DNA of 64,000 bases, from contig MWEK01000004.1 of assembly GCA_002070955.1 (NCBI GenBank), forward strand, positions 1 to 64,000, in the 5' to 3' direction. Under the pieces are notes generated by a model that searched no databases, was not told where the DNA came from, and was given only the letters and a program-made list of their open reading frames with translations. Of the stretch, positions 32,890 through 52,600 are shown piece after piece; positions within the stretch are counted from its first letter, which is position 1; each line of letters opens with the position of its first letter. A program made the position numbers and the translations under genes. The stretch is from Planctomycetes bacterium ADurb.Bin069 (GTDB lineage: Bacteria; Planctomycetota; UBA8108; UBA8890; UBA8898).

Positions 32890-34257
32890 TCACCCTGCTT
32901 CTTCCTCCGGAGAAGCGTCCGGTTCCTCTACGGCCGGCGCCTCCGTCGCGGTCTGCTCGGGAGCGGATGCGTTCTCCGCGTCGGCGGCGGGCGCCGTGCC
33001 CGGGACTTGTCCGGGCTCGGGCTCTTCCGGCTCGGGCTCTTCCGGCGCGGGCGCTTCCGGCGCGGGCGCTTCCGGCGCGGACTCTTCCGGCGCGGACTCT
33101 TCCGGCGCGGACTCTTCCGGCGCGGACTCTTCCGGCGCGGACTCTTCCGGCGCGGGCTCGATCTCAATGTACTCGATGGCCTTGCCGGCCGCCTCTCCGG
33201 GGGCCCGTTCCTTGAGGGCGGTGTCGGCGTCCGCCCCGCCGCGCGCCGTGCCGACGAGCGTGCCGATTTCGTCGCCCTCGTCGACGTCCTCGGTCTTGAG
33301 GCGCCGGATGTCATCCTCGGACACCGTCACGACGTCCAGATCCCAGTGGGAAAGCGCCGACGCCAGGCGCACGTTCTGGCCGCGCTTGCCGATCGTGATG
33401 GACTGCTGGTCGGGGGTCACGTAGACGCGCGCCCGCCGCGTGTCGTAATCCAGGTCGATCGACACGATTTCCGCGGGCTTGAGCGCATTGACGATGAAGA
33501 GCTCCGGCACCTCGTTCCAGGGCACGATCTCGATCTTCTCGCCGAACAGCTCCTCGCGGATGCTCTTGACCCGCGAACCCCGCACCCCCACGCAGGCGCC
33601 CACGCAGTCGACGTTGGCGTCGGTGCTGGACACCGCGATCTTGGTGCGGTGGCCGGGCTCCCGCGCGATATCCAAGACCTCGATGGTCTTGTCCCTGATC
33701 TCGGGCACCTCGATCTCGAAGAGCGCGTTGACGAAGCGCGGATCGCGGCGGCTCAGGATGATCTTCACCTGGTTGCCGTTCTTCTGCACGTCGAGGATGT
33801 AGGCCTTCAGGCGGTCGTTGATGCGGAAACGCTCGGACGACACCTGCTCGCTGCGGGGCAGGTAGCCCTCGACCTTGCCCAGACCGACCACGATGGCCGA
33901 CCCCTCGTAACGCATAACCGAGCCGGTCGCGATGGTCCCGAGCTTCTTGGCGTACTCCAGGTACACCACCTCGCGGCTCGCCTCGCGGATCTTCTGAAAA
34001 AGGACCTGCTTGCCGGTCTGGGCGGCGAGGCGCCCGAGCTGCTCTCGGAGCTGCTCGTGGCCGAGGGCTTTGTCGCCCACCGTCGCCGTCACCTCGCCCG
34101 ACTTGCGATCGATAAAGACCTGGACGGCCGTCTCCTCGCCCCATTTCTTGAGGAGGGCGGAGGAGATCGCCGCCTCAAGGCCGATAAACACGGCCTCCTG
34201 CTCGATGTCCTTCTCCCGATGGATCTGGTCGACGAGTCGAAGTATTTCTGCTCGCAT
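32890..34257 (-). CDS. nusA: Transcription termination/antitermination protein NusA
   Basis: A 455-residue elongation factor that binds RNA polymerase and modulates pausing and termination. The N-terminal domain (MRAEILRLVDQIHREKDIEQEAVF) aligns with E. coli NusA from the first residue, which fixes the start. An S1 domain (TGSVMRYEGSAIVVGLGKVEGYLPRSEQ, about 110-180) and two KH domains (GACVGVRGSRVKSI; TIGKRGQNVRLAS) follow. Instead of extra NusA repeats the tail is acidic low-complexity, with runs of PEESA and PEEPE units encoded by a 15-bp tandem repeat. Unusually, no SD stands at normal distance: a terminator-like hairpin plus T-tract ends two bases before the ATG. RimP, normally upstream, is missing. 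First gene of nusA-infB-rbfA-nadE. Confidence 0.95.
   Translation of the reverse strand: MRAEILRLVDQIHREKDIEQEAVFIGLEAAISSALLKKWGEETAVQVFIDRKSGEVTATVGDKALGHEQLREQLGRLAAQTGKQVLFQKIREASREVVYLEYAKKLGTIATGSVMRYEGSAIVVGLGKVEGYLPRSEQVSSERFRINDRLKAYILDVQKNGNQVKIILSRRDPRFVNALFEIEVPEIRDKTIEVLDIAREPGHRTKIAVSSTDANVDCVGACVGVRGSRVKSIREELFGEKIEIVPWNEVPELFIVNALKPAEIVSIDLDYDTRRARVYVTPDQQSITIGKRGQNVRLASALSHWDLDVVTVSEDDIRRLKTEDVDEGDEIGTLVGTARGGADADTALKERAPGEAAGKAIEYIEIEPAPEESAPEESAPEESAPEESAPEESAPEAPAPEAPAPEEPEPEEPEPGQVPGTAPAADAENASAPEQTATEAPAVEEPDASPEEEAG
33019..33153 (-). repeat. 15-bp tandem repeat (nine units) in the nusA 3' end
   Basis: Nine in-phase units run from 33019 to 33153. Five identical ones (GGACTCTTCCGGCGC on the plus strand, 33079-33153) encode PEESA; the others are variants (two GGGCGCTTCCGGCGC and two at the 33019 end). 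They encode a Pro/Glu-rich tail. Because units are 15 bases, copy-number changes would keep the frame, so tail length may vary between strains. Confidence 0.9.
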
Positions 34258-34718: not shown

Positions 34719-34747
34719 TTGACAGCGCGCTTTTCGTGAGGTACCAT
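34719..34747 (+). promoter_or_regulatory. Promoter of the mcsA-mcsB-clpC operon
   Basis: TTGACA (34719-34724), 17-base spacer, TACCAT (34742-34747). The leader is about 35 bases and has AAAGG (34776-34780) as SD before the ATG at 34789. Confidence 0.7.
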
Positions 34748-34788: not shown

Positions 34789-35307
34789 ATGCTTTGTCAG
34801 AACTGCTCCAAGCGCGCGGCCACCGTGCACCTCACGGAGGTCGTCAGCAACACGAAGAAGGAAATCCACCTGTGCGAGGAATGCGCGCAGTCCAAGGGGG
34901 TTGCCATCAAAACCCACATCCAGGGCCTGGAGATCCCGGAGTTCTTCGGCCAACTGGCCCAGAGCCACGGCCAGACACCCTCGGGCGCGAGCGCCGAGGC
35001 GCAGACGCGCTGCGATTCCTGCGGGCTGACCTTCGAGGCGTTTCGCAACTCCGGCAAGTTCGGCTGCCCGGACTGCGTCGCCAGTTTCAAGAAAGGGCTG
35101 GTGGGGTTGGTCGAGCGGATTCACGGCGGCACGCAGCACCGCGGCAAGGTCCCCAACCGGGCGACCGAACGCATCGCCAAGCAGAAGGAACTCATGGAGC
35201 TCAAGGAGGAGCTCAAGCGGGCCGTGGCGGAGGAGGCGTACGAGCGCGCCGCCCGGCTCAGGGACACGGTGCACAAGCTTGAGTCCAAGCTGGGCTACCA
35301 CACTTAA
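34789..35307 (+). CDS. mcsA: McsA, zinc-finger activator of protein arginine kinase
   Basis: A 172-residue protein that activates McsB. CxxC pairs at C3/C6, C29/C32, C75/C78 and C93/C96 give two treble zinc sites, and a UVR-type coiled coil ends it (KELMELKEELKRAVAEEAYERAARLRDTVHKLE). This is the standard McsA layout. First gene of a five-gene operon; mcsB starts 11 bases later. CtsR, the usual first gene and repressor in Firmicutes, is absent. Confidence 0.95.
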   Translation: MLCQNCSKRAATVHLTEVVSNTKKEIHLCEECAQSKGVAIKTHIQGLEIPEFFGQLAQSHGQTPSGASAEAQTRCDSCGLTFEAFRNSGKFGCPDCVASFKKGLVGLVERIHGGTQHRGKVPNRATERIAKQKELMELKEELKRAVAEEAYERAARLRDTVHKLESKLGYHT

Positions 35308-35318
35308 CAGGCGGACGC

Positions 35319-36389
35319 ATGATCGAGCTGTCTCAGCTACAAGTGCTTTCCGGCGAGTGGCTCAGCGGCGGCGGTGCGGAGGCCGATGTCGTCGTGAGCA
35401 GCCGCGTCCGGCTGGCCCGCAACGTGGCCGGATTCCCCTTCCTGACCCGCGCCGCCGAGGAGAAGCGCGCCGCGGTCGAGGGGCTCATCCGCGCCGCCGT
35501 CAAGGATAGTTCGCTCCGGTCCCGGATGACTTACCACGACCTGGCGGCCATGGAGCACGTCGAAAGGCAGTTCCTGGTGGAGCGCCACCTGATCAGCCGC
35601 GACCACGCCTTCGCGCAAGGGCCGCGCGGCGTGGCGTTCACGGCGGACGAGCGCGTCAGCATCATGGTCAACGAGGAGGACCATCTCCGGATCCAGAGCC
35701 TGCGGGCGGGCCTCGAGCTCCGGGCGGCGTTCGAACTCGCCAACGAAATCGACGATGCCCTCGAGGAGCGCGTCGACTACGCGTACTCCTCGCAGTTCGG
35801 CTACCTGACGGCTTGCCCCACCAATCTGGGGACGGGCATGCGGGTCTCGGTCATGCTGCACCTGCCGGCCCTGGTCATCACCCGGGAGATCGAGAAGGTG
35901 TTCCAGGCCGTGAACAAGATCAACCTGGCCGTGCGCGGGCTGTACGGCGAGGGCACCCAGGCCTCGGGGGATTTCTACCAGATCTCCAACCAGGTGACGC
36001 TCGGCAAGACCGAGGACGAGATCGTCGACAACCTCGTCAGCGTCATCCCGCAGATCGTGAAATACGAGCGCAAGGTGAGGCAGACGCTGCTCCAAGCCAA
36101 GCGCGTCATCCTGGAGGACAAGATCTGGCGCGCCCTCGGCGTGCTGCGCGTGGCCCGCACCATCACCTCCGAGGAGACGCTCGAGCTTCTGTCGCTCGTG
36201 CGGCTCGGGGTGCATCTGACGGTCGTCGAGGGCATCTCGACGAGCACGCTCAACGAGCTTCTGGTGCTGAGCCAGCCGGCGCACCTCCAGAAGGTCGAGA
36301 GCGCGAAGCTGAGCTCCCACGAGCGCGACGTGGTGCGGGCGCGCTACATACGCGAACGACTCGGCAAGGACATGGGGCCCGTGGGATAG
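35319..36389 (+). CDS. mcsB: Protein-arginine kinase McsB
   Basis: A 356-residue phosphagen-kinase-like enzyme that phosphorylates arginines on damaged or regulatory proteins, marking them for ClpCP degradation. The nucleotide-binding start [12 protein letters not shown] and the catalytic cysteine C166 in [22 protein letters not shown] (C167 in B. subtilis) are present, and the C-terminal dimer/pArg-binding domain is complete. Length is normal. Encoded between McsA and ClpC, it is expected to feed this ClpC. Confidence 0.96.
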
Positions 36390-36420: not shown

Positions 36421-38934
36421 ATGGAAAATATCTTCGACCGTTTCACGGAACGGGCCAAAAAGGTTCTGGGACTCGCCCGGCGCGAGGCCCAGGAGCTGAA
36501 CCACGATTACATCGGCACCGAGCACCTGCTGCTCGGCCTCGTGCGCGAGGGCGGCGGCGTCGCCGCGAACGTGCTGCGCAACCTCGGCGTGGACAACGAC
36601 CGCATCCGCGAAGAGGTCATGAAGTACATGCAGCCGGGCCCGAACATGAAGGTCCTGAGCAAGCTGCCCTTCACCCCGCGCGTCAAGAAGGTGCTGGAGC
36701 TGTCCCTCGAGGCGGCCATTGAACTCGGCCACAATTACGTCGGCACCGAGCACCTGCTGTTGGGCCTGATCCGCGAGAACGACGGCGTGGCCGCCCACGT
36801 GCTCCTGGATCTCGGCCTCCGGCTCGAGGAGGTGCGGGACGCCGTGCTCGAACTCCTCGGCAGCCCGCAGTCCCAGGCGTCGGAGGCGTCCCCGTCGACG
36901 CCGGCGTCGCTCCTCGGCTCGTCGTCGGGGCCGAAGCGCGGCAAGTCCAAGACCCCCGCGCTGGATTCCTTCGGCCGGGATCTCACGGAGCTGGCCCGGG
37001 AGAACAAGCTCGACCCCGTGATCGGCCGGCGCGAGGAGATCGAGCGCGTGATCCAGATCCTCGTGCGCCGTTCCAAGAACAACCCCGTCCTGCTGGGCGA
37101 GCCCGGCGTGGGCAAGACCGCCATCGTGGAGGGCCTGGCCCAGGACATCGTGGATGGCAACGTGCCGGAGCTGCTCCGGGACCGGCGGCTCGTGGTGCTC
37201 GATCTCGCCATGATGGTGGCGGGCACGAAGTACCGCGGGCAGTTCGAGGAGCGCATCAAGGCCGTCATCAACGAGGTCAAGCGCTCCGGCAACATAATTC
37301 TCTTCGTCGACGAGCTGCACACCCTGGTGGGCGCGGGCGGGGCCGAGGGCGCCATCGATGCCGCCAACGTGCTCAAGCCGGCGCTGGCGCGCGGCGAGGT
37401 CCAGTGCATCGGCGCGACGACGTTGGACGAATACCGCAAATTCATCGAGAAGGACGGCGCCCTGGAGCGCCGCTTCCAGACCATCATCGTGAATCCGCCC
37501 AGCCCCGAGGAGACCGTTCAGATCCTGCAGGGCCTGCGCGATCGCTACGAGGCCCACCACCGCGTCAAGATCGAGGACGCGGCCCTGCGCGCCGCGGTGG
37601 AGATGTCGACCCGCTACATCAGCGGCCGCTTCCTGCCCGACAAGGCCATCGACGTCATCGACGAGGCCGGCTCCCGCGTCCGCATGCGCACCATGACCCG
37701 GCCGCCCGATCTGCGCTCCATCGACAAGGAGATCGAACGCCTCACCAAGGAAAAGGAGGAGGCGGTCGCCGAGCAGGACTTCGAGCGCGCGGCGCGCGTT
37801 CGCGACCAGGCCGATCAGCACAAGAAAAAGCGCGAGACCCTCAAGCGCGAGTGGCAGGAAAAGTCCCAGGAGTTCAACGGCGTCGTCGACGTCGAGGTCG
37901 TGGCGGAAACCGTGTCGAAAATGTCCGGGATTCCGCTGACGCGCCTGGAGCGCGCCGAAGCCGACCGCCTCCTCAAGATGGAGGAGGAGCTGCACAAGAC
38001 GATCGTCAGCCAGCAGGAGGCCATCAAGACCATCGCCCGGGCCGTCCGCCGCTCGCGCTCGGGTCTCAAGGACCCGCGCCGGCCGGTGGGCTCGTTCCTC
38101 TTCCTGGGGCCCACGGGCGTGGGCAAGACGCTCGTCGCCAAGTCGCTCGCGCAGTTCATGTTCGGCTCGGAGGATGCGCTCGTCCAAATCGACATGTCGG
38201 AGTACATGGAGAAGCACAACGTGTCGCGCCTGGTCGGCGCGCCGCCCGGCTACATCGGCTACGAGGAGGGCGGCCAGCTCACCGAGAAGGTCAGGCGCAT
38301 GCCCTACGCCGTGGTGCTCCTGGATGAGATCGAGAAGGCGCACGCCGACGTCTTCAACATGCTGCTGCAGATCATGGAGGAGGGCCACCTCACCGACAGC
38401 TTCGGGCGCCGCGTGGATTTCCGCAACGCCGTCGTGATCATGACCTCGAACATCGGCGCGAGCCTGATCAAGAACCGCTCCGGCCTCGGGTTCCGGCAGA
38501 CGGGCGGGGATCGCTCCTACGAGGAGATGCGCAAGGAGCTGATGGAGGAAGTCAACCACAACTTCCGGCCCGAGTTCCTCGGGCGCCTGGACGAGATCAT
38601 CGTCTTTCGCGGGCTGACCGAGCAGGACATGCGCCGGATCATCGAACTGGAGTTCGAGCGCGTGAAACAACGCTTGAACCAGCGCGGCATCGCCATCGAG
38701 CTGGGCGACAGCGCCAAGGAGTTCCTGCTGGCCATCGGCATCGAGAAGGACGCGGGCGCGCGGCCGCTCAAGCGCGCCATCGAAACGCATGTCGAGGACC
38801 CGCTCGCCGAGGAGCTGCTGCGCGGCTCCTACCCGGAGGGCGCCAAGGTGCTCGTGGTGAAGGAGGGCCCGGGCCTGAAGTTCACCTACAGCCCCATCGC
38901 CCATCCGACCGTGAGCGCGGACGTGAAGCGTTGA
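36421..38934 (+). CDS. clpC: AAA+ unfoldase ClpC
   Basis: An 837-residue Hsp100 unfoldase. Two N-terminal Clp repeats ([38 protein letters not shown]), which in ClpC bind phospho-arginine, occupy residues 1 to about 145. NBD1 has Walker A GEPGVGKT (226-233), the M-domain carries a UVR-type motif (about 441-476, [20 protein letters not shown]), and NBD2 has GPTGVGKT (563-570). The short M domain and UVR motif distinguish ClpC from ClpA and ClpB. No clpP is beside it. The C terminus is VSADVKR. The next gene starts close behind, in the same operon. Confidence 0.97.
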
Positions 38935-38972
38935 GCCCGGAGCGGCGGCCGTTGACCGGAGAAGGAGCAGGC

Positions 38973-41243
38973 GTGGTGACGGGAGAGGGGGGCGCGGGCG
39001 CCGCCCTGCGGCGGGTGCTCGTGTCGCCTTGCAAACTCGCTGCGCCCATCGACCTTCGCGTGCTGCTCGCCGCGGACGTCCTCGCCCGTTGGCGGCGCGC
39101 GCACACCGCTCGGGTGGAGGTTGCCTTCGCGCTCAATCACGGCGGCAAGTGGGCTTCCGCCGGCGTGCATGCTCTCGAGGATTTGCCCGACGCCGTCGAC
39201 CGCCGGCGGAAAAAGTTCCAGGATGACATCGCCGCCGCGATCGCACGCCTGGGCCTGAACTGCGGCGCGCAGGTGCGTTTCTCGCTGGATCCGGACTTCG
39301 CGCGGGGCGCCCAGCGGCTGTTCACGGCTCTGTTCGCCCGCGGCTGCATCACCCGGGACCGCGTCGTGGCTCCCTGGTGCTTCTCGTGTCTGACCGCGCT
39401 GGACTCCGACCGCAAGCGCCAGGCGCGGGAAGAAACCGTCGCCGCGGTGCAGGTCCTGTTTCCGCTCAAGGGCACCGACAAGAAGCTGCCGGTGCCCTTC
39501 CGATCGCCGGAGTTGCTCGGGGCCACCGTGGGTGTGGCGATCCATCCCGGCGACAAGACGCTCGAGCCCCTCATCGGCCGGACGGTTCGGGTGCCGCTCT
39601 ACGGGCGCGAGGCAAAGGTGTTCGGCCTGGCCGAGTCGGGCCTGGCGGGGACCGTCAGGCCCGTGTTGCCGGCGTATGACCAGGCGGACTTCGAGCTGGC
39701 CCAGGCGAACCACCTGGCGGTGGTCGATGTGCTCGGCGGCGACGGGAAGCTCAACGCCGCGGCGGGGAGATACGCGGGCAAGACCGCCGCGGAGGCTCGC
39801 GAGCTCATCCGCCAGGATCTGGCCGAGGCCGGCGCTCTCGGCGGAACGGAGTCGATCGCCGTCACGCGGCCGGAGTGCGAGATCTGCGGTCAACCGCTCG
39901 GGGCCCGCGCGACCTATCAGTGGTTCGTGCACCTGGAAGCGTTGGGGGGCGATTTCGATCACGCGTGGCTCCGCGCGCACGCCGCGCCCGCCGCGTTCCG
40001 GCGGGCGCTGGAGGCCGAAGCCGGCCGCGTCCGGTGGTGTGTCAGCCGGCAGTCGGAGTGGGGCGTGCCGCTCCCGGCGTGGTACTGCGGCTCGTGCGGC
40101 GAGTTCACGGTGGCGGTCGGCGCGCCCGAAAACTGCGCGGCGTGCGGCGCGACGGCTTTCGCGCAGGCGCCGGAAAAACTCTCCTCGGGCTTTCTGGCGG
40201 CGGTGTGGCCCCTGCTTGCCGCCGCGCCGGGCGCCGACGAGGACGATGAGCCCGAGCCCGCCCTCATAACGGCGCTCTTCGGCGAGCGAGAGGCCGAACT
40301 GGCCTACCTGACGCTGCGGACGGCGCGCGGCGTCGCCTCGACCCAAGAGATCGAGCGCGCCGCCGCTGTTAAGCCGAGCGCGGCGGGCGTGCCGCCGCCG
40401 GGAGCCGAGCCCGACGCGCTGCGCGTGAGCCTTCTCATGAAGGGCGCGCGGGGCGAATGGTACGAGCAGGCGCGCGACGCGCTGCGGGCGTTCGTCGCCT
40501 TTTTCGCCCGCGTCGCCGCGGCGCAGGCCGAACCGCTCCCGGCCGGCGGAGAAATGCCGCTGGTCGAGCAGTGGCTGGTCCACTCCTGCCGCCAGGGGGA
40601 GCGGTTCCTGCGGCGGGCGCTGGAGGAGGCGCGCTTGGGTTTCCTGGGCGAGACCCTCCGCCGCTTCGTCCTCGCGCCCCTCGCCGACGTGTACCTGCCG
40701 CGCCTGCCTACGCGCCCGCCCGCGGCGGCGGCGCTCGCCGCCGCCGGGCTCAAGGCGCATGCGCTTCCGTATCTGGCGCTCCTCGCGCCGGCCGCGGCCG
40801 AGGAGATCCGGCGCGCCGGGTTCCGCGATGATTCCGGCGCCGGGGATGCGGCCGCGGAAGAACCCATCGATCGCGTGCTCCTGAGACGCGTGCGCCAGCT
40901 TCTGCGGCTGGAACGGCTGTTCGGCAGGGAGCCGGCCCGCGCCGCGCGCGCGGCCATCCGCGGCCCGGCGAGCGAGGCCGCGGCGCTGCGCCTCGCCGCG
41001 GAGGCGTTCGGCGTCGCGGCGGTGTCGGCGGCCCTGGCGCGGCCGCGCGAAACCGGGACGCCCTACCGGGGCGAGATCTTCGGCGAGGTGGTGCTGCTCA
41101 CCCCCGCCGGGGAGAGCAATCTCGATGGGGTCATCGAACGGCTCAGGCGGCGCCGCGCCGCGCAACGGCGCGACGCCGCCGAGAGCAACGAATTCATCAA
41201 CGAGCTCAAGCGCGCGAGCGAGCGCGCCGGGGGCGGAGCCTAG
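38973..41243 (+). CDS. Valyl-tRNA synthetase-like pseudoenzyme lacking HIGH and KMSKS
   Basis: A 756-residue protein. GTG at 38973 is preferred, with GAAGGAG five bases upstream; a TTG overlapping the clpC stop at 38931 is the alternative. The frame follows ValRS from end to end: FTALFARGCITRDRVVAPWC and CFSCLTALDSD as in the connective region, the editing domain (LIGRTVRVPLYGREAKV), CxxC at 302/305, WCVSRQ (355-360), zinc-type pairs C372/C375 and C388/C391, an anticodon-domain-like half and a C-terminal coil. The active parts are eroded: HIGH is replaced by IDLRV (26-30), the KMSKS position reads RAAAVKPSA, the Thr-rich editing strand is PFRSPEL (175-181) and only D236 of the HDxxD motif remains. 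It cannot charge tRNA in the usual way. Role unknown; location after ClpC is suggestive. A degraded but open pseudogene seems unlikely for 756 codons. Confidence 0.8.
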   Translation: MVTGEGGAGAALRRVLVSPCKLAAPIDLRVLLAADVLARWRRAHTARVEVAFALNHGGKWASAGVHALEDLPDAVDRRRKKFQDDIAAAIARLGLNCGAQVRFSLDPDFARGAQRLFTALFARGCITRDRVVAPWCFSCLTALDSDRKRQAREETVAAVQVLFPLKGTDKKLPVPFRSPELLGATVGVAIHPGDKTLEPLIGRTVRVPLYGREAKVFGLAESGLAGTVRPVLPAYDQADFELAQANHLAVVDVLGGDGKLNAAAGRYAGKTAAEARELIRQDLAEAGALGGTESIAVTRPECEICGQPLGARATYQWFVHLEALGGDFDHAWLRAHAAPAAFRRALEAEAGRVRWCVSRQSEWGVPLPAWYCGSCGEFTVAVGAPENCAACGATAFAQAPEKLSSGFLAAVWPLLAAAPGADEDDEPEPALITALFGEREAELAYLTLRTARGVASTQEIERAAAVKPSAAGVPPPGAEPDALRVSLLMKGARGEWYEQARDALRAFVAFFARVAAAQAEPLPAGGEMPLVEQWLVHSCRQGERFLRRALEEARLGFLGETLRRFVLAPLADVYLPRLPTRPPAAAALAAAGLKAHALPYLALLAPAAAEEIRRAGFRDDSGAGDAAAEEPIDRVLLRRVRQLLRLERLFGREPARAARAAIRGPASEAAALRLAAEAFGVAAVSAALARPRETGTPYRGEIFGEVVLLTPAGESNLDGVIERLRRRRAAQRRDAAESNEFINELKRASERAGGGA

Positions 41244-41275: not shown

Positions 41276-42667
41276 ATGGGACCAATCCGGTTCATTGCGG
41301 TCGCCGCGGTGGCGCTGGGCCTGCCGCTCCGAGGGCAGGAGGCGCCGGGAACCGCGGCGCTCAAGGCGCTTCTTGACGCGCCCTCGGAACGGATCGATCT
41401 GTACGCCGGCGTGCTGCTGCTGGGCGCGCAGGCGGGTCGCGCGGTGCCGCCGCACTTGGATTACCTCCTGCGCCTCACGAAAGCGGCCGGCGAATCTATC
41501 GCCGCGGGCGACGGCTCGCACGCGGCCTGCCTGGCCGCCGCGGCCGGCGTCGTGTTCGGCGCCGAAGGCTTTCGCGCCGATCACGAGGATCTGTCGCTGG
41601 AGGCTCTGACCCTGCCGCGGGCGATCGAGCAGAAACGCGGCCCGCCCATCATGATCGTCGTTCTGGTGCTGGCGGCGCTGCGGGATGCGCCGGCGGCCGC
41701 CCAGGTCATCTGCGCGGGAGGCCGTTACTTCGTGCGCATGGGCCCGGCGGGCCAGGAGCGCTTCCTGGACGTGGAGAGCGGCCGCGTCGCGGCCCCCGGC
41801 GATCCGCTGCTGCGCGGCGCGCGTCTGGAGGGTGCGCCGGCGCTCAGCACGCGCCAGATTCTCGGGCACTACGCGCTGTGTCTCGGGCGCGCGGCGCAGC
41901 GGGAGCGCCGCGATGCGCTGGCCGGCCGCTTCCTGAAGATCGCCTGGCATCTGGCGCCGCAGAATCCGGAGCTGTACGTCGTCGAGGGGCGTCGCGCCCT
42001 CCTGCGCTGGGAACTCGCCAAGGCCGAACGCTGCTTCGTGCGCGCTCTCAGGCTCGACCCGGTTCTCAGGGACGGGCACGTGGGCATGGCGGAGATCTTC
42101 GTCCGGCAGCGGCGTTTGAACGAGGCCGCTTCGGCCCTGGAGAAGGCGTTCGCCGCCGATCGTGAGGATCCGGAAGCCCTGCGCGTTCGCGGCGAGCTCT
42201 TTCTGGCGAAGGGCGACTTCCGCGCCGCGCAGGATCTCTTCGAGCGCTTCGCGCAGTGGAAGCCGCAGGACCCGCGCGCCTGGAGCGGGCTGGCGCTGGC
42301 GCACATCGGCCGCAACAATCGGGCCGGGGCCCGCGCGGCGCTGGCGCAGGCCGAGGCGCGGGCGCCCGCCGGGGTCGAGACGCAGTTCGCGGCGGGCGAA
42401 ATCCTCGCGCACGAGCAGGACTTGGACCGCGCCTTCACGGCGTTCCGCAAGACCATCGAAGCCAACGCCCGCTTCGCGCCGGGGTATCTGCGGCGCGGCG
42501 CCATCTACGAGGCCTGGAACGTGCCCGGCGCGGCGCTGCGCGACTACCGGATGTGCCTGGAGCTTCTGGAGCTGCCCCGCGAGCATCCCTTCGCGCGCGA
42601 CATTGCCGCGCGCATCGCGAAGCTGCGCGCGGACCTGGGGGCCGAGGGACCGGGGGAAATGCGGTAA
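41276..42667 (+). CDS. Exported tetratricopeptide protein with SirB1-like N-terminal domain
   Basis: A 463-residue protein with signal peptide (MGPIRFIAVAAVALGLPLRGQ). Residues about 115-180 (LPRAIEQKRGPPIMIVVLVLAAL ... AGGRYFVRM ... ERFLDVESGR) resemble the SirB1/transglutaminase-like domain often joined to TPRs; I cannot see a convincing Cys-His-Asp triad, so it is probably inactive. From about residue 200 at least six TPR units follow (AQRERRDALAGRFLKIAWHLAPQNPELYVV; KAERCFVRALRLDP; ASALEKAFAADREDP; AAQDLFERFAQWKPQDP). Probably a periplasmic scaffold. It starts 32 bases after the synthetase-like gene and ends the operon, convergent with the GGDEF-EAL gene. Confidence 0.75.
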   Translation: MGPIRFIAVAAVALGLPLRGQEAPGTAALKALLDAPSERIDLYAGVLLLGAQAGRAVPPHLDYLLRLTKAAGESIAAGDGSHAACLAAAAGVVFGAEGFRADHEDLSLEALTLPRAIEQKRGPPIMIVVLVLAALRDAPAAAQVICAGGRYFVRMGPAGQERFLDVESGRVAAPGDPLLRGARLEGAPALSTRQILGHYALCLGRAAQRERRDALAGRFLKIAWHLAPQNPELYVVEGRRALLRWELAKAERCFVRALRLDPVLRDGHVGMAEIFVRQRRLNEAASALEKAFAADREDPEALRVRGELFLAKGDFRAAQDLFERFAQWKPQDPRAWSGLALAHIGRNNRAGARAALAQAEARAPAGVETQFAAGEILAHEQDLDRAFTAFRKTIEANARFAPGYLRRGAIYEAWNVPGAALRDYRMCLELLELPREHPFARDIAARIAKLRADLGAEGPGEMR

Positions 42668-42686: not shown

Positions 42687-45101
42687 TCACGCCTCGACGC
42701 TCAGCTTCTCCCCGTACGTTTCCAGGAACCGCGCGAATTCCTCGGGCGGGAGGGCGGGGCTGTAGAGAAACCCCTGCGCCTCGTCGCAGCCCGCTTCCTT
42801 GAGAAACCGCTCCTGGGCGGAGGTCTCCACGCCCTCGGCCACCACGGTGAGGCCCAGGTTGTGCGCCATGGCGATGATGGCCTTGACGATCGCGGCCGCG
42901 TCGGGGTCGTCGTTCACGTTGCACACGAAGGAGCGGTCGATCTTCAAGGTGTGAAAGGGCAGCCGCCTGAGCGCGTTGAGCGATGCGTAGCCCGTGCCGA
43001 AGTCGTCGATGGCGAGCTGAACCCCGAGGGTTTTCAGCGCGCCGAGCGCCGTGGCGATGTCGGCGGCCTCCTCCATGAGGAAGTTCTCGGTGACCTCCAG
43101 GATGAGGCGGTTGGGCTCGACGGCCGCCCTGGCGAGCGCCTTGCGCACCGTGCGCGCGATGGTGCCCCGCTGGAACTGGTAGCCCGAGAGATTGACGCTG
43201 ACATCCAGGGGGGGCGCGCCCGCCGCGTCCCATGCCTTGACCTGGGCGCAGGCCTGGGACAGCACCCACTCCCCCAGCGGCGCGATGAGCCCCGTCTCCT
43301 CCGCGAGGGGGATGAACTTCGCGGGCTCGATGAGTCCGGCGCCGCCGTGCCGCCAGCGCAGCAGCGCCTCGGCGCCGATCAGCTTCCGGTCCTTGAGCGT
43401 GACGAGGGGCTGGTAGTAAACGAAGAGCTCGTCGTGCTTCATGGCGTGCCTGAGATTGGTTTCCAGGAGCACGCGCTCCAGGGCGCTCACCGTGAGCTCC
43501 GACGTGTAGGTGCGGTAGCTGTTCTTGCCGTCGCCCTTGGCGCGGTACATGGCCGCCTCGGTGTTCTTCACCATGGTGTCGGCATCGTCGGCATCGTCGG
43601 GGAACACGCAGATGCCGATGCTCGCCGAGGTGTAGAACTCCTTGCCGTTCAGGATGAACGGCGCGGCCATGGAATCCAGGATCCGCTGGGCGAGGACCTC
43701 GGGCTCCTTGAGGGGCGACACGTCCTCGATCAGGACCGCGAATTCATCGCCGCCCAGCCGGGCGAGGGTGTCGTCGGAGCCGACGTGCGCCTGGAGGCGC
43801 GGCACGAGGGACTGCAGCAACTGGTCGCCGACGGCGTGCCCCAGGCTCTCGTTGATATGCTTGAAGCGGTCCAGGTCCAGGAAAAGGAGCGCAATTTTGC
43901 GTTGCGAGCGCCGCGCGTTCATGATCGAAAGCTGCAGCCGCGCGTTGAAGAGCAGCCGGTTGGGGAGCTTCGTCAGGGGATCGAGATTGGCCAAGCGGGT
44001 GATCTCGGCCTCGGACTCCCGCGAGGCGCTCAGGTCCTCGAAAGTGCCCACGTAGTTGATGCAGCGGCCGTCGGAGTCCCTGACCTCGTTGATCGTGAGC
44101 CAGGCGGGGAAGAAATCGCCGTTTTTGCGGCGGTTCCAGAGCTCTCCCCGCCAGTACCCGGTCTCCCTGAGCGCGGTCGAGATCTGTTCGTAGAACGCGG
44201 TGCTGTGCCGTCCCGACTTGAGCAGGCCGGCGCGCTGCCCCGCCGCCTCCTCCTTGGAATAGCCGGTGATTTCCGTGAAGGCGCGGTTGACATCGAGAAT
44301 TGTCCCGGCGGCATCGGTGATGAGGATGGCCTCGACCGTGCTCTCGAAGACCTTGGACCACAGGCGCAGATGCTCCTCCGAGGCGACGCGCTCCGTGACG
44401 TCGGTGAAGGTCACGGCGAAGCAGCCGAGCCGGGGCGCGAAAGCGCTCACCTCGAAGTGCTTGCCGAGGGACGGCGCGTGGAACTCGAAGCGCGTGGGCG
44501 TACCCGTCACGGCGACCTCGAGATAAAGGGCGGTCCACTTGGGATCGAGGTCCGGCATCACCTCCCGCGATGTCTTCCCGACGACCTGGGCGCGGGTCAA
44601 GCCCGTCAGGCGCTCGAAGGCGGGGTTCACATCGAGGTAGCGGTAATCGCAGGGCCGGCCCTGGGCGTCGCGGACGATCTCGTGGAAGGCGAAGGCGCTC
44701 ACCATTTCGTTGATGATCAGGCGCAGCGGCCGCTCGCTGGCCGATCCGGACTGAGCGTTGGGGGAACGCGTGACGACCAGGGCGTAGCGCTGCTGCTCGA
44801 AGATCTGGCGGCGGATGATCGTGCGCCCCAGGAACGTGCTGCCGTTGCGGCGGCGGAACGTCATGGTTTCCGGCGGCGCCGTCGGATCGATGTCGGCGCC
44901 GGACCGCTCCTCCGGCAGGACGCCGATGTCGCGCAGGCTCAGGCCGCGCAGCTCCTCGCAGGCATACCCGAGCTGAGCCGCGGCCGTCTCGTTGGCATCG
45001 ACGATGCGTCCGGAAGGCATCTCGGCCACAAGGATGATGTCGGCCGCGCGATCGAGCAGCGCTCGAAAACGTTGCAATTCCGCTAGGATGGGCTCTTTCA
45101 T
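42687..45101 (-). CDS. PAS-PAS-PAS-GGDEF-EAL cyclic-di-GMP turnover protein
   Basis: An 804-residue cytoplasmic signalling protein without membrane segments. Three PAS-type sensor domains occupy about residues 10-115, 130-245 and 250-370 (the third is the best: ESTVEAILITDAAGTILDVNRAFTEITGYSKEE). The diguanylate cyclase site is intact (GGDEF at 450-454) and so is the phosphodiesterase site (EAL at 578-580, DDFGTGYASL, EGVET). Both activities are possible; which dominates cannot be read from sequence. It is divergent from the glycosyltransferase operon that starts at 45380, so control of exopolysaccharide by c-di-GMP is a reasonable inference. Confidence 0.95.
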   Translation of the reverse strand: MKEPILAELQRFRALLDRAADIILVAEMPSGRIVDANETAAAQLGYACEELRGLSLRDIGVLPEERSGADIDPTAPPETMTFRRRNGSTFLGRTIIRRQIFEQQRYALVVTRSPNAQSGSASERPLRLIINEMVSAFAFHEIVRDAQGRPCDYRYLDVNPAFERLTGLTRAQVVGKTSREVMPDLDPKWTALYLEVAVTGTPTRFEFHAPSLGKHFEVSAFAPRLGCFAVTFTDVTERVASEEHLRLWSKVFESTVEAILITDAAGTILDVNRAFTEITGYSKEEAAGQRAGLLKSGRHSTAFYEQISTALRETGYWRGELWNRRKNGDFFPAWLTINEVRDSDGRCINYVGTFEDLSASRESEAEITRLANLDPLTKLPNRLLFNARLQLSIMNARRSQRKIALLFLDLDRFKHINESLGHAVGDQLLQSLVPRLQAHVGSDDTLARLGGDEFAVLIEDVSPLKEPEVLAQRILDSMAAPFILNGKEFYTSASIGICVFPDDADDADTMVKNTEAAMYRAKGDGKNSYRTYTSELTVSALERVLLETNLRHAMKHDELFVYYQPLVTLKDRKLIGAEALLRWRHGGAGLIEPAKFIPLAEETGLIAPLGEWVLSQACAQVKAWDAAGAPPLDVSVNLSGYQFQRGTIARTVRKALARAAVEPNRLILEVTENFLMEEAADIATALGALKTLGVQLAIDDFGTGYASLNALRRLPFHTLKIDRSFVCNVNDDPDAAAIVKAIIAMAHNLGLTVVAEGVETSAQERFLKEAGCDEAQGFLYSPALPPEEFARFLETYGEKLSVEA

Positions 45102-49692: not shown

Positions 49693-52600
49693 ATGTTTCC
49701 GCAGGTTTCGACGACGGTCAAATTCCCGCGCCTGGAGGAGAAGATCCTCGATTTCTGGACGGAGCGCGAGGTCTTCGCGCGCTCCATCGCCCAGCGCAAG
49801 GGCCGCCCCGAGTACGTCTTCTACGACGGGCCGCCCTTTGCGACGGGGCTCCCGCATTACGGCCACCTCCTGGCCGGCACGATCAAGGACGTGATCCCGC
49901 GCTACCAGACCATGCGGGGGAAGCTCGTCGAGCGCCGCTTCGGCTGGGACTGCCACGGCCTGCCGGTGGAATACGAGATGGAGCAGACGCTCAAGATCTC
50001 CGGCAAGCGCGAGATCGAGTGCTTCGGAATCGACCGGTTCAACGAGGCCTGCCGCGGCATCGTCCTCAGATACACCGCCCAATGGGAGGAAATCGTCGCG
50101 CGCATGGGCCGGTGGGTCGACTTCAAGAACCACTACCGCACCATGGACCCCGATTACATGGAGTCGCTGTGGTGGGTCTTCAAGACCATCTGGGACAAGG
50201 GCCTGCTCTACGAAGGCACCAAGAGCATGCCCTACTGCCCGCGCTGCGCGACGCCGCTTTCGAACTTCGAGGTCCAGCAGAACTATATCGAGGTCGAGGA
50301 CCCGGCGCTCACCGTGCGCTTCCGCTCGCGGACGCGGGAGCGCACGTACTACCTGGCGTGGACGACGACGCCTTGGACGCTGCCCTCCAACGTCGCCCTT
50401 GCCGTGGGCGCGGAGATTCCCTACGTCGTCGTCGACGACAAAGAGGACGGCAACAGCTACGTGCTCGCCGAGGCGCGCGTGGGGATGTATTGGCGCTCGG
50501 AGGAGCAGTACGCGGTCCGCGCGCGCTTCCTCGGCGCGGAGCTGGCGGGCGAGACCTACGAGCCGCTTTTTCCCTACTTCGCCGGCAAGGCGGAGGAAGG
50601 CGCCTTCCGGGTCCACGCGGCGGATTTCGTCGCGACCGACGAGGGCACGGGCATCGTCCACATCGCGCCCGGCTTCGGCGAGGAGGACCATGACCTGGCC
50701 CTGCGGAACGGCATCCCCGTGGTGTGTCCGGTGGATGCCGAGGGGTGCTTCACCGCCGAGGTTCCGGACTGGCAGGGCATGTTCGTCAAGGACGCGGACG
50801 AGGCGATCCTGGGCCGCCTGAAAGCCGAGCGGAAGCTCGTCCGCCGGGAGAAGTACGCCCACAACTACCCGCACTGTTGGCGGTGCGAGTCGCCCCTCAT
50901 CTTCCGCGCCATTGCCACGTGGTTCGTCCGGATCGAACCCATCAAGGAGGCGATGCTCGCCGCCAACCGCGCGATCAACTGGGTGCCGGCGCACATCAAG
51001 GAGGGGCGCTTCGGCAAGTGGCTCGCGGGCGCGCGGGACTGGGCCGTGTCGCGCAACCGCTACTGGGGGACGCCGCTCCCGATCTGGAGGTGCGCCTGCG
51101 GCGAGGTGGTGTGCGTGGGCTCGCGGGAAGAGCTCGAGAAGCTGAGCCGCGCGCGGCTTGCCGACCTTCACAAACACTTCGTCGACAAGGTGACGATTCC
51201 CTGCCCCGCCTGCAAGCAGGCCATGGCGCGGGTGCCCGAGGTGCTGGACTGCTGGTTCGAGAGCGGCGCCATGCCCTACGCGCAGAGCCACTACCCCTTC
51301 GAGCACAAGGCCCGGTTCGAGGCCAGCTTCCCCGCCGACTTCATCGGCGAGGGGCTGGACCAGACCCGCGGGTGGTTCTACACCTTGGTCGTCCTCGGCG
51401 CCGCGCTCTTCGGCAAGGCGCCCTTCAAGAACGTCGTCGTGAACGGCCTGGTTCTGGCGGAGAACGGGCAGAAGATGTCCAAGCGCCTCAAGAACTATCC
51501 CGAGCCGCGCGCGGTCATCGATGCCTACGGAGCCGACGCGCTCAGGCTCTACCTGCTGGACTCGCCCCTGGTCCGGGCCGAGGATCTGCGCTTCTCGGAG
51601 AAGGGCGTCCAGGACAAGCTCCGGACGATTCTCCTGCCCCTCTGGAACGCGCTGTGCTTTTTCACCGGCTACGCGAACATCGACGCCTGGACGCCGGACC
51701 AGGCGGCGGAGCCCGAGGAGCTCATCGACCGCTGGATCATGTCGAGCCTGCAGCGCTTGAAGCGCAGGGCCGCCGCGGCCATGGATGCCTACGACCTCCA
51801 AGGCGCCATCGAGCCGCTGGTCGCCTTCATCGAGGATCTCACCAACTGGTACATTCGCAGGTCGCGGAGGCGGTTCTGGAAATCGGGCGACGGCGCCGAC
51901 AAGCGCGCGGCCTACACGACGCTTTACCGCGTCCTGAAGGAACTGGCCCGGGCGATCGCCCCCTTCGTCCCCTTCATCGCCGAGGAGATCCACCGCGCGC
52001 TGCGCCGGGACGACGAACCCGAGTCGGTGCACCTGTGCGATTACCCCCTGCCCGATCCGCGCTACGAGAACGAGGCGCTGGACGCCCTCATGGGCCGCGC
52101 GATCGAGGCCGCGGGCCTGGCGCGCGCCCTCAGGGTCAAGCACAAGCTCAAGATCAGGCAGCCGCTGGCGGCGCTCATCCTCGTCACGCGGGACAAGGCC
52201 GAGCGGGAAGGCCTGGCGCGGCTGGCCGAACTCCTGCGCGACGAGCTCAACGTCAAGGCGATCCGCCTGGCGGAAAACGAGGACGACCTGGTGGACATCA
52301 CCGCCAAGGCGGATTTCAAGGCGCTCGGCCCGCGCCTGGGGCCGAAAGTCAAGCGAGCGGCGGCGCTCATCGCCGAGCTCGACCGCGCGACGCTCAGGCG
52401 CCTTGAGGCGGGCGGGAGCGTGGAACTGTCCCTCGACGGCGAGCCGGTTCCCATCGCCTTCACCGACATCGTGTTGAACCGCATCGAGAAGGAGGGCCTC
52501 ATCGTCGCGAACGCGGGCACCCTGACCGTGGGTCTGGACACGCATCTGACGCCGGAGCTCATCGCCGAGGGCCTCGCGCGGGAGTTCGTCAACAAGGTCC

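Follow-up and report, generated by a model that had tools for sequence, protein, structure and literature searches.

The stretch of Planctomycetes bacterium ADurb.Bin069 considered here (contig MWEK01000004.1, positions 1 to 64,000, and referred to below as the window) carries a gene whose product, P0001, is related to valyl-tRNA synthetase (ValRS) but has lost the motifs of a charging enzyme. The gene is the fourth in a row of five, mcsA, mcsB, clpC, the P0001 gene and a gene for a protein with Transglut_core2 and TPR domains, which are separated by gaps of 11, 31, 38 and 32 bases, respectively. The first of these, mcsA, belongs to the Bacillus-type McsB–ClpC operon, as does ctsR in Gram-positive bacteria. 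A first-pass annotation of the window had described an intact reading frame for a ValRS look-alike, preceded by a ribosome-binding site and lying between clpC and a TPR gene in the mcsA–mcsB–clpC operon, and this was borne out by the uninterrupted frame and by the gene order (Table 1). The ribosome-binding-like AGAAGGAG stands 5 bases upstream of the GTG start, with the same bases found before the gene copy in UBA4800, a second genome of this genus, and no terminator-like sites were found on the forward strand between the genes of the row.

Table 1. Positions in the window of the ValRS-like gene, of the other genes in its row, and of features within the P0001 protein.
Feature	Position	Strand	Basis or remark
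Sigma-70-like promoter match upstream of mcsA	34719..34747	+	10/12 consensus; not evidence of function
mcsA-like gene	34789..35307	+	UvrB/UvrC motif PF02151 E 4.6e-7; weak zinc-ribbon PF09723 E 0.0056, under its cut-off
mcsB-like protein arginine kinase gene	35319..36389	+	PF00217 E 2e-74
clpC-like gene	36421..38934	+	Pfam: Clp_N, AAA domains, UVR motif
Ribosome-binding-site-like AGAAGGAG of the ValRS-like gene	38960..38967	+	Read in sequence
ValRS-like pseudoenzyme gene (P0001)	38973..41243	+	756 aa, GTG start, uninterrupted frame
HIGH motif place, residues 18–30, no His left	39024..39062	+	Column alignment
DHAG place, residues 55–58, NHGG	39135..39146	+	H-G-G in 5/5
C136-x-x-C139	39378..39389	+	Invariant 5/5
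CP1 (editing-type) domain, residues 156–295	39438..39857	+	
Y-D-x-x-D, residues 235–239, remnant of editing HDxxD	39675..39689	+	Y, D, D invariant 5/5
C302-x-x-C305	39876..39887	+	Invariant 5/5
W-C-V-S-R-Q, residues 355–360	40035..40052	+	W, S, R in 5/5, Q in 3/5
C372/C375 and C388/C391	40086..40145	+	Invariant 5/5
Low-confidence segment in place of KMSKS lobe, residues 418–480	40224..40412	+	pLDDT <50 for 418–473
Helical region in place of anticodon-binding domain, residues 480–615	40410..40817	+	Predicted helices
C-terminal domain with shortened coil, residues 631–751	40863..41225	+	Predicted structure
Transglut_core2 + TPR protein gene, end of row	41276..42667	+	PF13369 E 3.8e-7, TPR models

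P0001 belongs to a small family of at least five distinct proteins, which appears to be undescribed and in which the other members are P0003 from UBA4800 (82% identical to P0001), P0004 from a Logan record (36–37%), and P0012 and P0013 from JGI records (42–43% and 37%, respectively), the last three being metagenomic and all four 758–782 residues long (P0002 is 99% identical to P0001 and was not counted separately; each protein search scored the approximately 8000 candidates sharing most words). The best family match of P0001 was to ValRS (TIGR00422, E 7.7e-48; PF00133, E 1.8e-14), with a TIGR00422 score of 163 bits compared with 145–176 bits for P0004, P0012 and P0013 and 996 bits for the ValRS of the same genome, so that none of the four family proteins scanned reached the curated cut-off of 612 bits. 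The first-pass annotation had seen ValRS along the whole length of P0001. At the sequence level this holds for residues ~75–418 alone, and it is by predicted structure that the likeness extends further: the remainder of the protein is ValRS-like in its predicted fold, and the model includes the CP1 editing-domain fold of ValRS. The predicted local distance difference test (pLDDT) scores of the C-terminal domain were 69–91 by blocks in a model built from the family only, and 45–66 to residue 750 in one which included ValRS rows.

The losses were followed in an alignment of the five family members with 32 ValRS and 12 isoleucyl-tRNA synthetase (IleRS) rows, in which the roles of the HIGH, KMSKS, DHAG and editing-pocket positions are presumed to be those generally accepted for ValRS. 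Both His residues of HIGH are found in all 32 ValRS rows and in none of the five members, and P0001 reads I-D-L-R-V at residues 26–30 as first annotated. The KMSKS segment, with a catalytic Lys present in 32/32 ValRS rows, is a gap in every member, in agreement with the loss of this motif in the earlier description. A string search of the five whole proteins found no H-x-G-H or KMSKS-like string that could represent a shifted but intact motif, and the loosest KMSKS pattern matched solely KWSIS and the tail KRSK, both in P0004. The Asp of DHAG (32/32 ValRS rows) is kept by P0004 only, and D454, W456 and W495 (numbered, like the next residues, as in the ValRS of the same genome) are present in 32/32 ValRS rows and 0/5 members. 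In the editing pocket T221, T226, T279 and H282 are replaced in all five proteins, T222 in four (P0013 keeps Thr) and R223 in four (P0012 keeps Arg), while the Lys column at K277 (31/32 ValRS rows) is Arg in every member and lies beside an inserted invariant Pro.

Other parts of the synthetase are kept. The claim that the Thr positions of the editing site had changed was correct, but not that D236 was the only residue of HDxxD in place, since D239 survives too, and this Asp pair and E180 are retained in 5/5 members; R229, P230 and Y235, which lie with the two Asp on the old ligand-pocket strand, are also invariant. WCVSRQ is present where it had been noted, with W355, S358, R359, G364 and P368 invariant in the five proteins, and four CxxC-type pairs were found where three had been counted (136/139, 302/305, 372/375 and 388/391); from their sequence these Cys pairs may bind zinc. 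The CP1 domain has a net charge of -2 to +9 in the family compared with -7 to -5 in four real ValRS rows, and the helical part +1 to +3 compared with -1 to +1. We note that P0012 and P0013, which are 43% identical, share a near-identical C-terminal tail, GGERPLSGSRE(S/P), which is absent from P0001, P0003 and P0004 and which perhaps serves in docking or degradation, or is constrained by the start of an overlapping gene.

A genuine ValRS of 915 amino acids is encoded on another contig of the same genome, with LHMGH and RMSKS and a match to TIGR00422 positions 2–862 of 863, and this is the separate valS that the first-pass annotation had suggested looking for. UBA4800 also has a ValRS sequence with HMGH, PAHD, SRQVWWG and RMSKS (it is split across two reading frames of a draft contig, L136). 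A phylogenetic tree of 48 rows and 342 columns covering residues 75–418 (six near-duplicates were removed and ile_L052 was dropped by the gap filter) placed the family in one clade (support 100) outside the ValRS clade (100) and the IleRS clade (100). If the family arose as a recent copy of the valS in its own genome it should group with that ValRS, and a tree constrained to this position was not rejected by the approximately unbiased (AU) test (0.24 with 5000 resamplings, which the program flags as too few for a reliable AU value), and one with the family beside L034 was rejected by AU (0.019) but not by the Kishino–Hasegawa or Shimodaira–Hasegawa tests (0.089).

The ValRS-like gene is under purifying selection. 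P0001 and the intact UBA4800 copy differ at 68, 72 and 173 first, second and third codon positions over 750 codons, with a z of 8.7 for the excess of synonymous over nonsynonymous differences (pS over pN), and the ratio of nonsynonymous to synonymous substitution rates (dN/dS) is 0.31 (0.14 for clpC, 0.12 for mcsB and 0.19 for the TPR gene). This selection, the same losses in five members, and the intact genuine valS elsewhere all favour a repurposed pseudoenzyme over junk, as had been supposed, and the copy in the close relative is not disrupted. Across the five members the invariant positions number 12/75 in the N-terminal Rossmann half, 17/70 in the next region, 52/155 in CP1, 33/115 after CP1 and including the Cys sites, 8/85 in the KMSKS lobe, 13/120 in the helical region and 14/136 in the C-terminal domain. 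As a control for identity, the six pairs formed by P0001, P0004, P0012 and P0013 (mean 0.38; P0003 was omitted as too close to P0001) were set against 153 pairs of real ValRS that are 35–46% identical (mean 0.43). Pair identity was lower in the family than in real ValRS for the N-terminal half (0.35 and 0.53, respectively), the region before CP1 (0.40 and 0.54) and the KMSKS lobe (0.30 and 0.44), but similar or higher for CP1 (0.52 and 0.48), the region after it (0.46 and 0.48) and the C-terminal domain (0.31 and 0.26), so that constraint has gone from the catalytic fold and has been kept in CP1 and the Cys region.

The family gene was found in two of 29 genomes sampled from the class, both of this genus, and in the other 27 the C-terminal half of P0001 went unmatched and the whole-length profile scored no more than 144 bits (1431 and 1449 bits for the genus pair). 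Some of these absences are weak because only 16/29 genomes reach at least 90% completeness with no more than 5% contamination. In a sample of the phylum, a C-terminal profile matched 9/392 genomes with up to five first-look candidates scored in each, strongly in just the two of this genus and weakly over part of the profile in the other seven (best E 3.9e-7 to 7.3e-4), which we did not count as members. A profile of all five members passed E 1e-50 in 119/391 genomes with up to two candidates scored in each (our own genome lies outside this listing and the rows were not individually checked); UBA4800 scored 1243 bits, and the other 118 had no more than 246 bits, with none of their matches reaching beyond approximately position 450 of 765, which is what ordinary ValRS would give.

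In UBA4800 mcsB, clpC, the P0003 gene and the TPR gene follow one another in the same order, with last three gaps (31, 38 and 32 bases) identical to ours. The suggested linkage with clpC therefore holds in both of the readable genomes with the gene, although both are of one genus. mcsB is found in 26/29 class genomes, and in the stretches that we examined from 16 of these mcsA, mcsB and clpC occur together in every case; no ValRS-like gene was found in any of the 16 at E 1e-4, of which 13 are informative on what follows clpC (stretches L101, L103 and L107 end in or just past it). Apart from its UBA4800 counterpart (91%), the TPR gene has no strong relative among the class genomes, 25/27 of the others giving weak matches alone (best E 5.4e-10). 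From these contexts the ValRS-like and TPR genes both appear to be additions of this genus behind an older mcsA–mcsB–clpC row. It should be noted that in 13/13 of the informative relatives (among L098–L113) the next gene after clpC is on the opposite strand and encodes an AG(T/S)KGKG stretch, which we take to mark folylpolyglutamate synthase, and that the window does not have this gene there.

The row in the window is flanked upstream by a diverging nusA-like gene (32890–34257, reverse strand), the product of which has a run of PEESAPEE-type repeats at its C-terminus, and downstream by a converging GGDEF–EAL gene (42687–45101, reverse strand). The Transglut_core2/TPR protein has an N-terminal stretch that by eye resembles a signal peptide. 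A terminator-like site lies inside the P0001 gene at 40617–40632, with eight such sites in the region compared with 4.7 (standard deviation 2.4) in shuffled sequences, and an IleRS-like gene (49741–51588, open frame of 1091 amino acids, PF00133 E 4e-146) is found some 8.5 kb downstream in the window. Four ClpP family matches were found in the genome (best E 5.9e-79). ClpS, sought with an N-degron role in mind, was not matched in this genome, which is 88.5% complete (5/14 named control genomes were matched), and PADLOC gave no defence-system match for P0001, P0012 or P0013.

Compared with bacterial ValRS (valS, TIGR00422), the family shares sequence over residues 75–418, the CP1 domain, the WxxSR strand and the predicted fold, but it differs in having neither HIGH nor KMSKS, in the loss of the DHAG Asp in 4/5 members and the changed editing Thr and His, in being shorter, and in scoring far below the valS cut-offs. 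Charging-dead synthetase paralogues which have become regulators are already known in SLIMP (from SerRS) and HisZ (from HisRS), as described in passages of PMC9437257. By its sequence P0001 appears to be of this type, with lost catalytic motifs beside a genuine synthetase in the same genome, and it has been selectively maintained. The nearest parallel, according to parts of PMC9437257 and PMC10570016, is insect SLIMP, which has a collapsed active site, does not charge but binds tRNA(Ser), pairs with SerRS and associates with the AAA+ protease Lon; it is, however, of SerRS origin, found in animal mitochondria, and the obligate partner of a domain-lacking SerRS, whereas P0001 is bacterial and of ValRS origin, its genuine ValRS is complete, and its link to a protease is by gene order only. 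HisZ is likewise a synthetase-derived regulator without adenylation activity, being the regulatory subunit of HisG that mediates amino-acid feedback, but it derives from HisRS and binds a biosynthetic enzyme, and the passage on it in PMC9437257 mentions no ClpC link. Passages of PMC8370763 place mcsB and clpC in one operon in Bacillus-type bacteria, as here, with McsB marking proteins for ClpCP, but the window has two additional genes after clpC. Among the titles and abstract beginnings of the open-licence PubMed Central papers listed we found neither a synthetase-like gene in an McsB/ClpC row nor a bacterial ValRS pseudoenzyme, whether or not tied to McsB/ClpC. The two papers with the phrase 'ValRS paralog' deal with a second Caenorhabditis elegans ValRS and with Anabaena, where such a paralogue is lacking. 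The word 'ValRS' is absent from the synthetase-paralogue review PMC9437257.

Judging by its motifs, P0001 very probably charges no tRNA, and the protein may well be a sensor or adaptor which would report the state of translation to the destruction machinery. With the charging motifs gone and CP1 conserved to the level seen in ValRS, including the two Asp, it could be regarded as an inert synthetase shell, and our tentative proposal, which we consider possible without calling it probable, is that it is a dead-synthetase regulator whose rebuilt CP1 binds a tRNA-end or amino-acid ligand and signals to ClpC proteolysis. On this simplest interpretation, CP1 would act as a module that binds an aminoacyl or tRNA-end ligand without hydrolysing it efficiently (the two Asp stay, the Thr and His sites change and the Lys column has become Arg). 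The signal would go on to McsA–McsB–ClpC, a direction suggested by the gene order, with P0001 touching ClpC, McsB or McsA as an adaptor or anti-adaptor. The fuller version, a ValRS-derived sensor of the arginine-phosphorylation/ClpC system in which tRNA 3' ends or aminoacyl groups would be recognised by the hollowed-out CP1, with a resulting switch in the targets of McsB/ClpC, we regard as doubtful. Several observations weigh against the proposed regulator: the mcsA–mcsB–clpC row stands without a ValRS-like gene elsewhere in the class; the tie to ClpC is one of operon position alone, seen in one genus; and within the genus dN/dS does not single out CP1, with values along the protein of 0.22 (N-terminal), 0.21, 0.40 (CP1), 0.30, 0.12 (residues 401–500), 0.45 and 0.45, which do not repeat the family pattern and speak against any simple reading in which CP1 is all that matters. 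To these can be added the pair identity of the helical tRNA-binding-like region, which at 0.29 in the family is below the 0.37 of real ValRS and speaks against ordinary tRNA recognition.

This loss of conservation also tells against a dead synthetase acting within translation, as a binder of tRNA(Val) or aminoacyl-tRNA or as an accessory to ValRS, for which the place in the clp row would mean no more than co-timed production. Such a role, which we think somewhat doubtful, would fit the predicted ValRS-derived fold across the whole length, the many class genomes which have mcsB (and, where examined, mcsA–mcsB–clpC) without the ValRS-like gene, and the example of SLIMP, which pairs with the real enzyme according to part of PMC10570016; however, as the ValRS of this genome is complete, there is no complementary domain loss of the kind seen in the SLIMP pair. 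That CP1 is the best conserved part, with D236, D239 and E180 kept and the Lys column Arg in all five members, could instead mean that P0001 is still an enzyme with changed CP1 chemistry, such as a hydrolase that edits some other misacylated tRNA in trans, but with the editing Thr and His positions replaced as described above this seems unlikely. A protein-binding scaffold, in which the synthetase shell and Cys knuckles survived purely as a surface that binds neither tRNA nor an amino acid, would suit the four invariant Cys pairs and the drained catalytic fold and is quite improbable given that the old ligand-pocket strand falls within the region under most constraint. There is very little chance that P0001 still functions as a ValRS through shifted motifs or that its gene is a decaying pseudogene: ValRS models are reached at E ~1e-47, but with 163 of the 612 bits needed, and the first is ruled out by the lack of H-x-G-H and KMSKS in five members and the second by the intact frame, the third-position excess and the low dN/dS.

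Should the regulator linked to ClpC prove to be true, P0001 would provide a direct wire from the state of tRNA or amino acids to proteolysis driven by arginine phosphorylation, and it would represent a case of an editing domain that was retained as a module once the remainder of the synthetase had been gutted. If it does act as a sensor, the proteins described here would be the first ValRS-derived pseudoenzyme family of translation-state sensors.
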